Assembly: GCA_026387575.1 (NCBI GenBank)
Contig: JAPLLK010000035.1
Location: 1 to 32,611, forward strand
Origin: Nitrospirota bacterium
GTDB taxonomy: Bacteria > Nitrospirota > Thermodesulfovibrionia > Thermodesulfovibrionales > UBA1546
DNA length: 32,611 bases
Direction of reading: 5' to 3'
In this document: positions 3,826-9,268 of the stretch, piece by piece
Position numbering within the stretch: position 1 is the stretch's first letter
Layout: the number at the start of each line of letters is the position of its first letter
Program-made: the position numbers and the translations under genes
The notes under the pieces: generated by a model
Database searches by the model: none
Seen by the model: the letters and a program-made list of their open reading frames with translations, nothing else
Told to the model about the DNA's origin: nothing

Positions 3826-4454
3826 TCTGTTTCCTTTGAAAAGAAGTCAAGGAGTTCTTCTGAGAAATCCTCCATCTCTATAATCAACTGCCGCGCCCTG
3901 CTCAGATAATAGTTATAGGCGATTACAGCGGGGATTGCCGCTGCAAGTCCTGCCGCTGTTGTAATCAATGCCTCTGCAATGCCCGGAGCAACGACTGCCA
4001 ATGATGCCGAGCCGGCAGCGCCTATCCCTCTGAAGGCATTCATAATTCCCCAGACAGTTCCGAACAGGCCGATGAACGGCGTGGTAGAACCCGTGGTTGC
4101 GAGGAAACTTAGATATTTCTCAAGCTTTGCTGACTCAAGCGCCGAGAATCTCCTAAGCGAACGTTTAATCTCAGCCTTATCAACGATATTTTCTGAGGAT
4201 GTAAATTTAAATATATTTGCCAGAGGGCTGAGGTTGATGGAACGTGCAGCAATTAAAAGCCCTTTCAGGTCACGTCCTGCCCTGTATGATCTCAGAAATA
4301 CGTCTGTCTCTTTGTTAGCCCTTGAAATGTAACGGTATTTATAAAAAATGATTGCCCATGATACGACAGAGAAAAACAGCAGGATAAGCAATACCACTTT
4401 AACCACATAGCCTGCCTGAAGAATCAATTGTATTGCAGAGTATTGCATAAGCAC
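3822..4454 (-). CDS. tolQ: Proton-channel protein TolQ (MotA/TolQ/ExbB family)
   Basis: Inner-membrane proton channel of the Tol motor. The 210-aa protein has an N-terminal membrane helix (about 13-35, VVKVVLLILLFFSVVSWAIIFY) and a cytoplasmic region. Two C-terminal helices carry the family motifs FIGLFGTVWGIMNAFRGIGAAGSASLAVVAPGIAEALITTAAGLAAAIPAVIAYN in pieces; the TVWGIM and ALITTAAGLAAAIPAV stretches are diagnostic. It is the first tol gene of the run tolQ-R-A-B-pal-cpoB, where the first four genes overlap by 4 bp each. The start has AGAGAGGTG just upstream as a ribosome-binding site. A 68-bp spacer separates it from the hypothetical gene before it. Confidence 0.95.
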   Translation of the reverse strand: MLMQYSAIQLILQAGYVVKVVLLILLFFSVVSWAIIFYKYRYISRANKETDVFLRSYRAGRDLKGLLIAARSINLSPLANIFKFTSSENIVDKAEIKRSLRRFSALESAKLEKYLSFLATTGSTTPFIGLFGTVWGIMNAFRGIGAAGSASLAVVAPGIAEALITTAAGLAAAIPAVIAYNYYLSRARQLIIEMEDFSEELLDFFSKETE

Positions 4455-5202: not shown

Positions 5203-5934
5203 TTATCCCTTCTTCAAATATAGGAAATATTCTATATTGCCTTTCCGTCCTGCAACAGGCGACTCAAACACACCAACAGTATGCAATCCGGCAGCCTCTA
5301 TTTCTGTTCTCACAGAATCAACTGCCGCAAGCCTTTTTTCTTCTTCTCTAACAATGCCGCCCTTGCCTACCTCTCCCCTGCCTACTTCAAACTGCGGTTT
5401 TACAAGCGCAAGTATTTCGCCATTCTCTTTTAAGAATTCTAACACTTTAGGAATAACCTTTGTAAGAGATATGAAGGAGACATCAATTGTTGCAATGTCA
5501 ATAATATCAGGAATCCTTTTCAGTTCAAGATGCCTGATATTTGTCCTTTCAAGAAGGATAACCCTCGAATCGTTCCTTAAAGACCATGCGATTTGTCCGT
5601 ATCCCACATCAATGCAGTATATTTTCTTAGCTCCCATCTGGAGCATACAGTCAGTAAAACCGCCTGTTGATGAGCCGACATCCATGGTTGTTTTATCTTT
5701 TAAGTCTATGTTGAAAAAATCTATGGCAGCTTTGAGCTTTAACCCTCCCCTGCTTACATATGGGATATCCTCTGACTTTAGGGTTATTGAGGATTCGCTG
5801 TTTATCATAGCGCCTGCCTTTGTGACAGGAGAGCCGTCAACCAGAACATTCCCTTCCATTATCAAAGCCCTTGCCCGCTCCCTGCTTTTTACCAGCGCCC
5901 TGTCAACCATTATCTTATCAAGACGATCTTTCAT
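5203..5934 (-). CDS. tlyA: TlyA family rRNA 2'-O-methyltransferase / S4-domain protein
   Basis: SAM-dependent methyltransferase of the TlyA family, which in mycobacteria methylates ribose in 16S and 23S rRNA. Residues 1-62 are an S4 RNA-binding domain (RLDKIMVDRALVKSRERARALIMEGNVLVDG). The rest is an FtsJ-like Rossmann methyltransferase with the SAM motif MDVGSSTGGFTDC near residue 85, IDVGYGQIAW, and the catalytic Lys region ALVKPQFEVGRGEVGKGGIV near 180. At 243 aa it is full length for the family. It is the first gene of the minus-strand run leading into tolQ. Some members are annotated as hemolysins, but the evidence points to RNA modification. Confidence 0.9.
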   Translation of the reverse strand: MKDRLDKIMVDRALVKSRERARALIMEGNVLVDGSPVTKAGAMINSESSITLKSEDIPYVSRGGLKLKAAIDFFNIDLKDKTTMDVGSSTGGFTDCMLQMGAKKIYCIDVGYGQIAWSLRNDSRVILLERTNIRHLELKRIPDIIDIATIDVSFISLTKVIPKVLEFLKENGEILALVKPQFEVGRGEVGKGGIVREEEKRLAAVDSVRTEIEAAGLHTVGVFESPVAGRKGNIEYFLYLKKG

Positions 5935-6008
5935 ATGAACGTATTATATCAAACATAGCCCTCAGCACAATTTATCTAACATGTAATCAGATAAAAATTT
6001 TAGCGCAA

Positions 6009-6116
6009 TTATTTATCCAGAGGACTCCTCACGCCGAGAATATTCTTGGTAGCCACATGGGTATATATCATTGTGGTCTGGATGCTGCTGTGACCCAACA
6101 AATTTTTATTGAATAA
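6009..6116 (-). pseudogene. C-terminal remnant of an integron-type tyrosine recombinase (IntI-like)
   Basis: The minus strand reads [20 protein letters not shown] and then [11 protein letters not shown]-stop. This is the end of a tyrosine recombinase: the LGHxxxxTT box and the catalytic Tyr in MIYTHV. The tail GVRSPLD is characteristic of integron integrases rather than XerC/XerD. The frame closes upstream with TAA at 6117-6119, and no earlier integrase boxes are visible. Only about 35 of the usual 320-340 residues remain, so the gene is dead. Its orientation, with the missing 5' end toward the cassette gene and attC site on its right, matches the standard integron layout in which intI points away from the cassettes. 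Confidence 0.82.
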
Positions 6117-6165
6117 TTATATTGCAACATGCTGCCTTTTTCAAGAGTTTTATCACTTTTTCTTC

Positions 6166-6194
6166 TTGACTCTATCCCTCTCCTTCACTATAAT
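6166..6194 (+). promoter_or_regulatory. Consensus sigma-70 promoter in front of the cassette gene (Pc-like)
   Basis: TTGACT (6166-6171), a 17-nt spacer and TATAAT (6189-6194) make a near-perfect housekeeping promoter, with transcription expected to start near 6201. It lies between the integrase remnant and the candidate cassette boundary (GTTAATC, 6237-6243). Its position corresponds to the cassette promoter Pc of integrons. It would give an approximately 77-nt leader before the ATG at 6278. Confidence 0.75.
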
Positions 6195-6236
6195 TCATCA
6201 TAATGTTGAAGCAACATAAAATATAATATTATACCA

Positions 6237-6243
6237 GTTAATC
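6237..6243 (+). other. Candidate attI/cassette junction (degenerate GTTRRRY core)
   Basis: GTTAATC lies 35 bp upstream of the cassette ATG and fits the GTTRRRY core-site consensus except for one position (T instead of a purine). If this is the junction, the cassette runs from about 6238 to 6850 (about 613 bp). It would have a very short leader before the gene and attC right after it, as is typical. A relic attI would lie to its left. The call is weak on sequence alone; the position is what supports it. Confidence 0.4.
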
Positions 6244-6277
6244 GAACAGTCATCGATCACAATGAAGGAGGTAGAAA

Positions 6278-6778
6278 ATGTTGAATAAACGCATAGCAAT
6301 AGTGACAATTGTGATGGCTCTTTGTGCTTCTGGCACTGCAGCCATTGCACAGGATGTTAGACAAGAGAAGAACATGTCGTTGACACTTGCCTACGAAGCA
6401 GCCACCGCTGCAATGCAGTTTTGCGCGGAAAAAGGATGGAACGTGTCTGTCGCAGTAGTCGATAGAGCAGGTCAACTCAAAGCATTGTTGCGGGCGGATG
6501 GAGCTGGCCCGCATACCATAGATGCAAGTCGTCGCAAGGCCTTCACTTCGGCATCTGCTCGCAACAACACGAGCGCCATACTCGAAAATGTTCAGAAAAA
6601 TCCCGGTGCTGCCAACCTTCAGTTGATTGATGGTTTCCTTGTCTTGGGGGGCGGCATGCCTATTCGTGTCGGAGACGAAGTGATTGGGGCTATCGGCGTT
6701 GGCGGCGCTCCAGGCGGTCATCTGGATGATCAGTGTGCAGAAGCGGGGATAAACAAGATTCGCGATCGCCTCAAGTAA
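6278..6778 (+). CDS. Exported GlcG/HbpS-type (DUF336) protein encoded on an integron gene cassette
   Basis: A 166-aa protein with a signal peptide (MLNKRIAIVTIVMALCASGTAAIAQ, cleavage likely after AIA, residues 22-24) and one GlcG/HbpS-like domain (about 33-165). Diagnostic stretches are AYEAATAAMQFCAEKGWNVSVAVVDRAG, ADGAGPHTIDASRRKAFTSAS, and the glycine-rich IRVGDEVIGAIGVGGAPGGHLDDQCAEAG. Family members bind haem or related small molecules (HbpS in Streptomyces) or lie next to glycolate and diol metabolism genes; the ligand here is unknown. AAGGAGGT lies 6 nt before the ATG. The sequence is visibly richer in G+C than the neighbours, and a full attC site starts 17 bp after the stop, so it was probably acquired as a mobile cassette. 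No neighbouring gene suggests a pathway. Confidence 0.9.
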   Translation: MLNKRIAIVTIVMALCASGTAAIAQDVRQEKNMSLTLAYEAATAAMQFCAEKGWNVSVAVVDRAGQLKALLRADGAGPHTIDASRRKAFTSASARNNTSAILENVQKNPGAANLQLIDGFLVLGGGMPIRVGDEVIGAIGVGGAPGGHLDDQCAEAGINKIRDRLK

Positions 6779-6794
6779 ACGAGATAGATGCTTC

Positions 6795-6856
6795 GCCTAA
6801 CCTATGCATCCAGGGGACACGGATGAAGCCCTGTGCCGCTGATGCTGCCGTTAGGC
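6795..6856 (+). other. attC recombination site (59-base element)
   Basis: The site starts with R'' GCCTAAC (6795-6801) and ends with R' GTTAGGC (6850-6856). The ends are perfectly complementary and match RYYYAAC/GTTRRRY. Inside, GCATC near 6805 pairs with GATGC near 6841, followed by AG/CT and further partly matched bases (GGGGACA against GTGCCGC), with the unpaired bases expected in attC hairpins. Total length is 62 bp, the short class of attC sites. It begins 17 bp after the stop codon of the GlcG/HbpS gene, as expected for a gene cassette. No second cassette follows; comEC ends 28 bp later. Confidence 0.85.
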
Positions 6857-6883
6857 AAGTGTGAATAATAAACACCGCTTCTC

Positions 6884-9268
6884 TCACCACACACTGAAAA
6901 GCCTCTTTATATTCTTCATCTCTCCGGCAAGGCTTTTTGTCTTTGAAAATCTATAGTCTCTGTGCGTTTTAACTTCAAGCATGCCGTCTTTTTCTGTTAT
7001 TTTTACTGCGCCGTTCATGTCCGTGCGGTATATCTTTGCACCCTCAAGCATATCAAGCGTATTCTGATGTGGATGCCCAAAACTGTTATCCCTTCCCAAG
7101 CTTATCACTGCAATCTCAGGAGATACAACATCATAGAAGGGCTTATATGCTGATGTCCTTCCGCCGTGATGGGGGACTTTAACAACATCACTCTTAAGCC
7201 ATTTGTCAAGATGGATTATATCCTCTTCTGCCTCCTCTTCAATGTCTCCTGTGAATAAAAATGTTTTCTTCCTTCCGCCTGAGGCAGATTCTATCTTTAA
7301 TGTCAAAGAACTGTTATTCCCTCCGTTATCGCCGTTCATTGTATAAAATTCCTTATATGGATGAAGCACATACACCTTATATCCTTTACCTTCAACAATA
7401 TCGCCCCTCTCAAGTATCCTGCGAACTATGCCCGTGCTGTTTCCCTCCGGATAAATAATGCGTCCGCTGTCCCACATCTCTTTAACCTTAAAACGTGCCA
7501 TCAGATAATCTGTTCCTCCCGCATGGTCAGAATCTGCATGTGAAAGAACAAGGGCGTCTATGCTTTTCATGCCGAGATATTTCAAAAATGCAGCCGCTTC
7601 GCGCCCGCTTTTCCCTGTATCCACCACAACAACCTTTTTATCAGGAAGTTCAACAACTGCTCCGTCCCCCTGCCCGACATCAAGATAAGTTATTCCTATT
7701 TCGCCGCCTCTTAAAAAGATATACGCTGACAAATAGACTATTATCAGGAGAGAAGTGATTGCAGGGACAAGTTTTTTCTTGCTTACGAAAAAATAAAAAA
7801 TAAATCCCGCGTAAAAGATTATTACTACAAACAGGGGCAATGCAGGAATCTTTATATCTGAAAACGGGAATTCCGCTGTAAATCTCACGAGATAGACAGT
7901 AATGTCAGTTACTGTCTTTACCAGAGAACCTAACATATAATGTCCTGTAAAAAGAAATATGAGAGACGATATCAGCGACAACGGCAAGAGCACAAAGCCT
8001 ATCAGCGGCGTAATTAAGAGATTGGACAGCGGAGATATAACCGAAAAATAATGAAAGTGATACGCAACCAGAGGCGCTGTCCCCAGAGAAGCTGCAAGCG
8101 TAAGCAAGACAGAAGCCCGCAATATCCTGAGTGAAGAAGCGAAAAAACGTGACAGGATTTTTTGTTCGTCTGCACCTTTGTTCTCCTGCGCTTCAGGATT
8201 CTCCTTGTCCTTTTCATAATCTATTGAAAACCCGATAAACAGCACTGCAAGGAATGAGAGCTGAAAAGAAAGGCTGAACAGAGACTCGGGATTCCACAAG
8301 ACAATCACAAATGCAGCAAACAAGAGTGAATTAAGCCAGAATCTTTTCCTGCCTATCAAAAGACCGATGAGAAACAGACTTATCATTATGAAAGACCTCA
8401 CTGCCGGAATGCTCCATCCTGAAAGAGCAAGATATGCAAGCATGAACGGAAGACTTAGAGCCGCTGCTCCCTGAGACGGCGTGACATAGAGTGTAATCCT
8501 CTGTAACAAACTGTACGGCAGAAATTTTATTACAAACCTGAATAAACCGAACAGGAGAACAGAGAAGATTCCGAAATGTGTGCCTGAAATGCTTAAAACA
8601 TGCGCAAGCCCTGTTGAGTTAAAGGCATCTTTTAAGCCATCGCTCATATTGCCTCTCTGACCTGTGGTTATGGCGGAAACAAGCGCGCCTGAATCAGCGC
8701 TGAAGTTCTCTATAACATATCTGTTAAGTTTTGCCCTTGCATCTTCAAACACTGCCCATATACTTTTTTTGCTGCCCCTTAAGTCTTTGACTTCAATCAG
8801 GTTTGCATAGAGATTGTTGTTTTCGGTCATTCCGGGATTGAACTTTCTATTGTCTCTGCCTATCTTAACCGCTATCTCATATATGTGTCCTGCTTCAAAC
8901 TCAGTATCAGAGAAAATAAAAATATCTTTCTCCTCAATCTCTTTTAATACCTTCCCTGTTTCCTCATCTGCCGCCGAGTTTACATGAAACTCCTGAATAA
9001 ATTTTCCTGTTGATGCCGCAACTGCATCTGAACCGAACACCCCTGACACGATTATTTCTTTTCCCCTGATATTAGGAAAATCAGTCTCAGGCGCATATCT
9101 GAAAAAGGCATATAAAACTCCGAAAACAAGGACAGGGATTAACAGGTATCTTTTCTTAAAAATCAGACTGGCAAGAAACAGAAAAAATATCAGACTGCTT
9201 GTGAAGGGGAAATAATGAAATGAATAAAATAGAATAACACCGGCAAGAAATGAAATGAAAAATGCCAT
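6884..9268 (-). CDS. comEC: ComEC/Rec2 family DNA-uptake channel protein
   Basis: Inner-membrane channel for single-stranded DNA uptake during natural transformation. The 794-aa protein has the full three-part layout. An N-terminal part with two to three membrane helices precedes an OB-like DUF4131 region (about 1-180). The competence membrane domain starts at about 200, with GLAHVLSISGTHFGIFSVLLFG and many helices to about 520. The C-terminal metallo-beta-lactamase-like domain starts at about 530, with ITYLDVGQGDGAVVELP, VVDTGKSG, LSHADSDHAGG and VVKVPHHGGRTS. It follows glmM by 16 bp in the same direction. Other competence genes such as comEA or pilus genes are not in the window. Next to an integron relic, a DNA-uptake gene is suggestive, but the gene is also common in the core genome. 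Confidence 0.95.
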   Translation of the reverse strand: MAFFISFLAGVILFYSFHYFPFTSSLIFFLFLASLIFKKRYLLIPVLVFGVLYAFFRYAPETDFPNIRGKEIIVSGVFGSDAVAASTGKFIQEFHVNSAADEETGKVLKEIEEKDIFIFSDTEFEAGHIYEIAVKIGRDNRKFNPGMTENNNLYANLIEVKDLRGSKKSIWAVFEDARAKLNRYVIENFSADSGALVSAITTGQRGNMSDGLKDAFNSTGLAHVLSISGTHFGIFSVLLFGLFRFVIKFLPYSLLQRITLYVTPSQGAAALSLPFMLAYLALSGWSIPAVRSFIMISLFLIGLLIGRKRFWLNSLLFAAFVIVLWNPESLFSLSFQLSFLAVLFIGFSIDYEKDKENPEAQENKGADEQKILSRFFASSLRILRASVLLTLAASLGTAPLVAYHFHYFSVISPLSNLLITPLIGFVLLPLSLISSLIFLFTGHYMLGSLVKTVTDITVYLVRFTAEFPFSDIKIPALPLFVVIIFYAGFIFYFFVSKKKLVPAITSLLIIVYLSAYIFLRGGEIGITYLDVGQGDGAVVELPDKKVVVVDTGKSGREAAAFLKYLGMKSIDALVLSHADSDHAGGTDYLMARFKVKEMWDSGRIIYPEGNSTGIVRRILERGDIVEGKGYKVYVLHPYKEFYTMNGDNGGNNSSLTLKIESASGGRKKTFLFTGDIEEEAEEDIIHLDKWLKSDVVKVPHHGGRTSAYKPFYDVVSPEIAVISLGRDNSFGHPHQNTLDMLEGAKIYRTDMNGAVKITEKDGMLEVKTHRDYRFSKTKSLAGEMKNIKRLFSVW

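Follow-up and report, generated by a model that had tools for sequence, protein, structure and literature searches.

A lone gene cassette for a predicted exported HbpS-family protein, probably stranded in a decayed Nitrospirota integron

The window analyzed here is a stretch of 32,611 nucleotides (contig JAPLLK010000035.1) from a Nitrospirota genome of the Thermodesulfovibrionales (GCA_026387575.1; 98 contigs, 1.63 Mb). Between two native minus-strand genes, comEC (6884-9268) and a tlyA-type rRNA methyltransferase gene (5203-5934), it carries an intact plus-strand open reading frame (6278-6778), an attC site downstream of it and, upstream, the 3′ end of an integron-integrase gene (intI). The names comEC, tlyA, dxs and cooC were assigned by inspection of the translations. 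The 6278-6778 gene is real and foreign, and gene and element are of known kinds.

The open reading frame encodes 166 amino acids (aa), signal peptide included. Residues 34-158 match the HbpS-like profile PF03928 (DUF336) with 121.7 bits against a gathering cut-off of 25 bits, covering profile positions 2-127 of 128, and no other gene of the genome contains this domain. The N-terminus (MLNKRIAIVTIVMALCASGTAAIAQ) combines a basic start with a hydrophobic core (11-residue Kyte-Doolittle mean of up to 3.0) and an AIA/Q cleavage motif; judged by inspection and hydropathy, residues 1-24 resemble a Sec signal peptide, and the predicted mature form has about 14.7 kDa. The G+C content of the gene is 51.9%, compared with 43.7 ± 2.2% (s.d.; maximum 49.6%) in the 29 native genes of the window, while its codon usage lies 2.2 s.d. 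under the native mean and within the native range. An earlier note on this DNA, made from the sequence alone, had described the product as an exported member of the HbpS/GlcG family encoded by a gene richer in G+C than its neighbours; the family assignment and the composition were confirmed, and the predicted signal peptide agrees with export.

The closest solved structure is HbpS (85.9 bits). An AlphaFold2 model of the protein (mean pLDDT 87.4) superimposes on HbpS (3fpw/3fpv) with a TM-score of 0.89 by target length, an rmsd of 1.5 and 40% identity; the structure matches that follow are DESPIG_02683, NahX, OrfY, EfgA and PduOC. The protein resembles HbpS of Streptomyces reticuli (HbpS-SenS-SenR system; PDB 3FPV, 3FPW and 4BMW) in its fold and predicted export, and the GAGP and GAPxG..D motifs as well as HbpS residues K83 and D143 are retained. 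It differs in that HbpS has a Tat signal and the protein described here a predicted one of Sec type, and in that its gene lacks an adjoining kinase or regulator gene and is carried as a cassette. EfgA (PDB 6BWS and 6C0Z) and the C-terminal domain of PduO (5CX7) share the PF03928 fold, but are located in the cytoplasm or in a microcompartment, whereas export is predicted here. Four residues, H79, K87, D150 and C153, are invariant in an alignment of 13 sequences and are the leading candidates for contacts with the ligand.

With HbpS as the closest structure and export predicted, the protein might bind or degrade haem and act against haem or iron stress as HbpS does, and the neighbours of its relatives in Holophagaceae (see below) include SCO1/SenC and a DUF4405 membrane protein. 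The haem contact Thr113 and the D/EXXE iron motifs of HbpS have been tested (PMC3754957). In the alignment, Thr113 corresponds to Phe120 and Lys108 to Gln, and all three iron motifs are broken (E43XXE46 to Q..A, E78XXE81 to D..R, and D141XXE144 to H..D), so the features of HbpS for haem and iron are not kept. In PduOC, haem is coordinated by His18 (PMC4923194); the corresponding column, aligned via HbpS and OrfY with less certainty in this helix, contains Tyr39 and varies even among close relatives. The link to haem drawn in the earlier note therefore lacks the backing of residues, and we consider the haem reading rather unlikely, though the conserved H79 and C153 could be alternative ligands.

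A sensor or binder of a small aldehyde such as formaldehyde, comparable to EfgA, is improbable. The formaldehyde contacts of EfgA are K57, S114 and D121 (PMC8153426), two of which are conserved (K87 and D150), and one close relative of the protein is from the methylotroph Methylobacillus. However, the Lys and Asp residues do not discriminate EfgA, as they are conserved across the whole family, the third contact is replaced by Gly, EfgA is cytoplasmic, and the structural match to it is weaker than that to HbpS.

On plasmids of Salmonella, Variovorax, Vibrio and Pantoea, exported homologues are encoded next to a histidine kinase gene and a response regulator gene, a neighbourhood that is frequent among exported relatives. 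No kinase or regulator gene was found beside the cassette copy, whose neighbours are comEC and tlyA. Since the exported plasmid homologues occur in the layout of HbpS-SenS-SenR, a ligand-binding or sensor subunit is favoured, and the likeliest role of the protein would be that of an orphaned extracytoplasmic subunit, kept as a cassette and parted from its kinase.

The attC site (6795-6856, plus strand, 62 bp) begins 17 bp past the stop codon. Its outer R boxes (GCCTAAC/GTTAGGC) are complementary at 7 of 7 positions, its inner boxes are GCATC/GATGC, and a shuffled window is expected to contain 0.017 sites of this quality; the foreign composition ends at this site. Only one attC is present. Sites with the same R boxes were found in 6 of 121 genomes of the order, the source genome included, and the flanks examined in the other five (L173, L174, L175, L176 and L177) contained no integrase match.

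No perfect GTTRRRY sequence marks the left edge of the cassette. The best candidate is GTTAATC at 6237-6243 (plus strand) and the alternative is GTTGAAG at 6205 (plus strand), each with one mismatch. The promoter that the earlier note had placed ahead of the gene was located as a promoter-like sequence, TTGACT-17-TATAAT (11 of 12 consensus positions; 6166-6194, plus strand), reading into the putative cassette. A second such sequence, TTGAAA-17-TATAAT (11 of 12; 6116-6144, minus strand), would drive transcription across the remnant of intI in the direction of tlyA. If the edge lies at 6237, the gene would have a 40-base leader containing AAGGAGGT, which lies just 5′ of its ATG, and the 6166-6194 sequence would belong to the integron platform, like a Pc promoter. 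A comparison of 6105-6290 with the regions beside the intact intI genes of the family, made in search of attI and Pc, gave only chance matches of 13-14 bases, and the Pc/attI reading of this segment is tentative.

The intI remnant (6012-6104, minus strand) comprises the last 31 codons and the stop codon; the codon for the catalytic Tyr is kept and the rest of the enzyme is missing. It scores 33 bits against positions 284-314 of TIGR02249, and is approximately 90% identical to the tails of IntI proteins of two sister species (G004 and G007), whose genes are intact or nearly so. The remnant adjoins the native tlyA promoter region and is situated about 170 bp upstream of the cassette gene on the opposite strand, which is the normal orientation of an integron, and this arrangement argues for a decayed integron. 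A complete integron has a functional intI, and no further IntI match at or above the cut-off was found in the source genome; with the rest of the gene lost, the cassette appears to be stranded. Neither this remnant nor the rearrangement joint described below is mentioned in the earlier note on the gene. The canonical attC and the opposed intI tail thus bear out the claim of the earlier note that the gene is a cassette gene.

Comparable losses through truncated or missing intI are known from Xanthomonas (PMC12444791). The locus resembles single attC and CALIN-type remnants in combining attC and a cassette with the lack of a working intI. It differs from CALIN-type remnants in having one attC (two were required in the Xanthomonas study, PMC12444791), an intI tail that still adjoins, and a rearrangement joint. 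Our literature search found no integron study for the phylum Nitrospirota, and nothing relevant on integrons in combination with DUF336, GlcG or haem binding.

The PF03928 domain is absent from all 15 other genomes of the family, and homologues in the phylum sample, several of them from Nitrospira, are about 50% identical. The nearest relatives are encoded by three metagenome-assembled genomes (MAGs) of Holophagaceae (Acidobacteriota; 77% identity over the full length), followed by Methylobacillus (73%) and then other Betaproteobacteria. In a maximum-likelihood tree, the gene groups with Holophagaceae with incomplete support (89/84) and is clearly separate from the Nitrospira/Nitrospinota clade (99/99). 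Vertical inheritance, named in the earlier note as the finding that would argue against a cassette origin, was rejected on the distribution of the domain and on the position in the tree outside the Nitrospirota homologues. A viral origin was also rejected (no relative of the gene was found in viral contigs), as was a recent plasmid origin (the best match to plasmid DNA, at 68.5%, extends over 32% of the query).

DNA identity to the Holophagaceae relatives is 69%, synonymous sites are saturated and pN is 0.15, which indicates that these bacteria are not recent donors and that strong constraint has acted on the protein along the path between them; owing to the saturation, selection after the transfer is beyond the reach of dN/dS. 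The G+C content of the relatives is 64-70% as against 52% here, pointing to an unsampled donor or a long residence. Given the intact frame, the strong promoter-like sequence and the strong constraint along the path to the relatives, it is plausible that the gene was kept and is expressed after transfer.

The phylogeny proposed in the earlier note did not lead to other cassettes: the nearest relatives are not cassette genes, and the flanking DNA of the close relatives L039-L043 and L045 yielded no attC. At a stricter setting, the pattern finder, whose negatives are weak because on six loci of class 1 integrons it recovered only two distinct sites (one of the aac(6')-Ib type and one of the aadA/catB3 type), found no attC in 434 kb of the relatives' loci apart from those of one Nitrospira MAG (L071). 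This locus has three attC sites (2414-2480, 2810-2872 and 4107-4169) without intI, the first of them beginning 144 bp 3′ of an HbpS-like gene. As the latter is preceded by a chromosomal gene and has no GTTRRRY edge, it is regarded as a neighbour of the attC sites and not as a demonstrated cassette.

These chromosomal relatives without attC, together with the position of the locus on a rearrangement joint and the lack of a perfect GTTRRRY at the left edge, would suit an ordinary lateral transfer or rearrangement, in which the attC and the IntI tail are there by chance or are unrelated neighbours. We consider this decidedly improbable, since an attC so close to the stop codon, an IntI tail upstream in canonical opposite orientation and a foreign composition that ends at the attC are very unlikely to coincide by chance.

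In four related genomes (G001, G003, G004 and G006), comEC is followed by a gene encoding a CooC-like ATPase, and in G001, G002, G006 and other genera dxs is followed by tlyA, with small genes or inserted genes, respectively, in between in some cases. In the source genome, comEC is followed by the attC, cassette and intI tail and then by tlyA (6000-6880), while on another contig (G000, C23, 37768-38002) the CooC-like gene comes immediately after dxs. This sister joint contains neither attC nor intI. The presence of dxs-cooC and comEC-tlyA junctions, in place of the comEC-cooC and dxs-tlyA junctions of the relatives, puts the block on the joint of a reciprocal rearrangement; judged from gene order, the cassette block of approximately 870 bases lies on one joint of an inversion-type rearrangement private to the source genome. 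In G006, dxs and tlyA are separated by a GC-rich stretch (L090:7940-8955) whose opposite strand apparently encodes a small exported protein, so foreign DNA enters this gap in a relative as well.

It is very unlikely that comEC and tlyA were wrongly assembled together across a repeated integron sequence: in this family, assemblies do break at IntI ends, and the contig pairs described below for G006 and G010 share a segment resembling an assembler overlap, but both flanks come from the same species-level genome (88% identity to congeners for comEC and 92-94% for TlyA), the genome contains no second copy of the cassette, and the reciprocal dxs-cooC joint is not predicted by a single misjoin.

The reading we prefer, with a probability of about 0.78, is that a lone cassette with a gene for an exported HbpS-family protein has been left in a decayed integron of this Nitrospirota genome, the model of export and ligand binding included. 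An IntI would have inserted the cassette beside the promoter of the platform, and the subsequent loss of intI, save for its last 31 codons, would have fixed the cassette in place. Transcription would start from the promoter-like sequence at 6166-6194, and the product would be exported by Sec, fold as an oligomer of HbpS type and bind a small molecule outside the cytoplasm. As an extracytoplasmic ligand-binding or sensor subunit without its own kinase, it may act as a scavenger or buffer, or as a partner of a resident kinase.

Across the genomes of the family, many loci carry an intact IntI gene or an isolated IntI tail. Two contigs of G006 (C5 and C26; L129 and L130) and two of G010 (C63 and C61; L124 and L125) have exactly 141 bases of the IntI 3′ end in common, followed by different housekeeping flanks, which is consistent with at least two copies of intI per genome in G006 and G010. 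In G012, G005, G008 and G010, a newer IntI 3′ end runs directly into an older type of tail, beside housekeeping genes that differ from case to case (stacked tails at L120:7531-7626, L121:2406-2438, L123:17192-17257 and L124:4529), and IntI tails of this kind are present at an M48 peptidase site in 3 of 14 genomes. No attC arrays were detected beside the intact intI genes of the family by the pattern finder, which misses divergent sites. The tails suggest that platforms have been replaced repeatedly in the family; the assemblies are fragmented, and rearrangement through the platforms is possible. That the platforms are generally multi-copy and repeatedly gained and lost, leaving scars of intI 3′ ends, with recombination between copies rearranging the chromosome and stranding cassettes, is a tentative and at present doubtful proposal.

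If it is true, the window would represent one relic of a process, acting throughout the lineage, by which integrons shape the order of genes. The locus described here would in any case illustrate how capture by an integron, followed by decay of the integrase, may turn a foreign gene into an ordinary chromosomal one, and its protein offers a clean and small test case for the ligands of orphaned HbpS-like domains.
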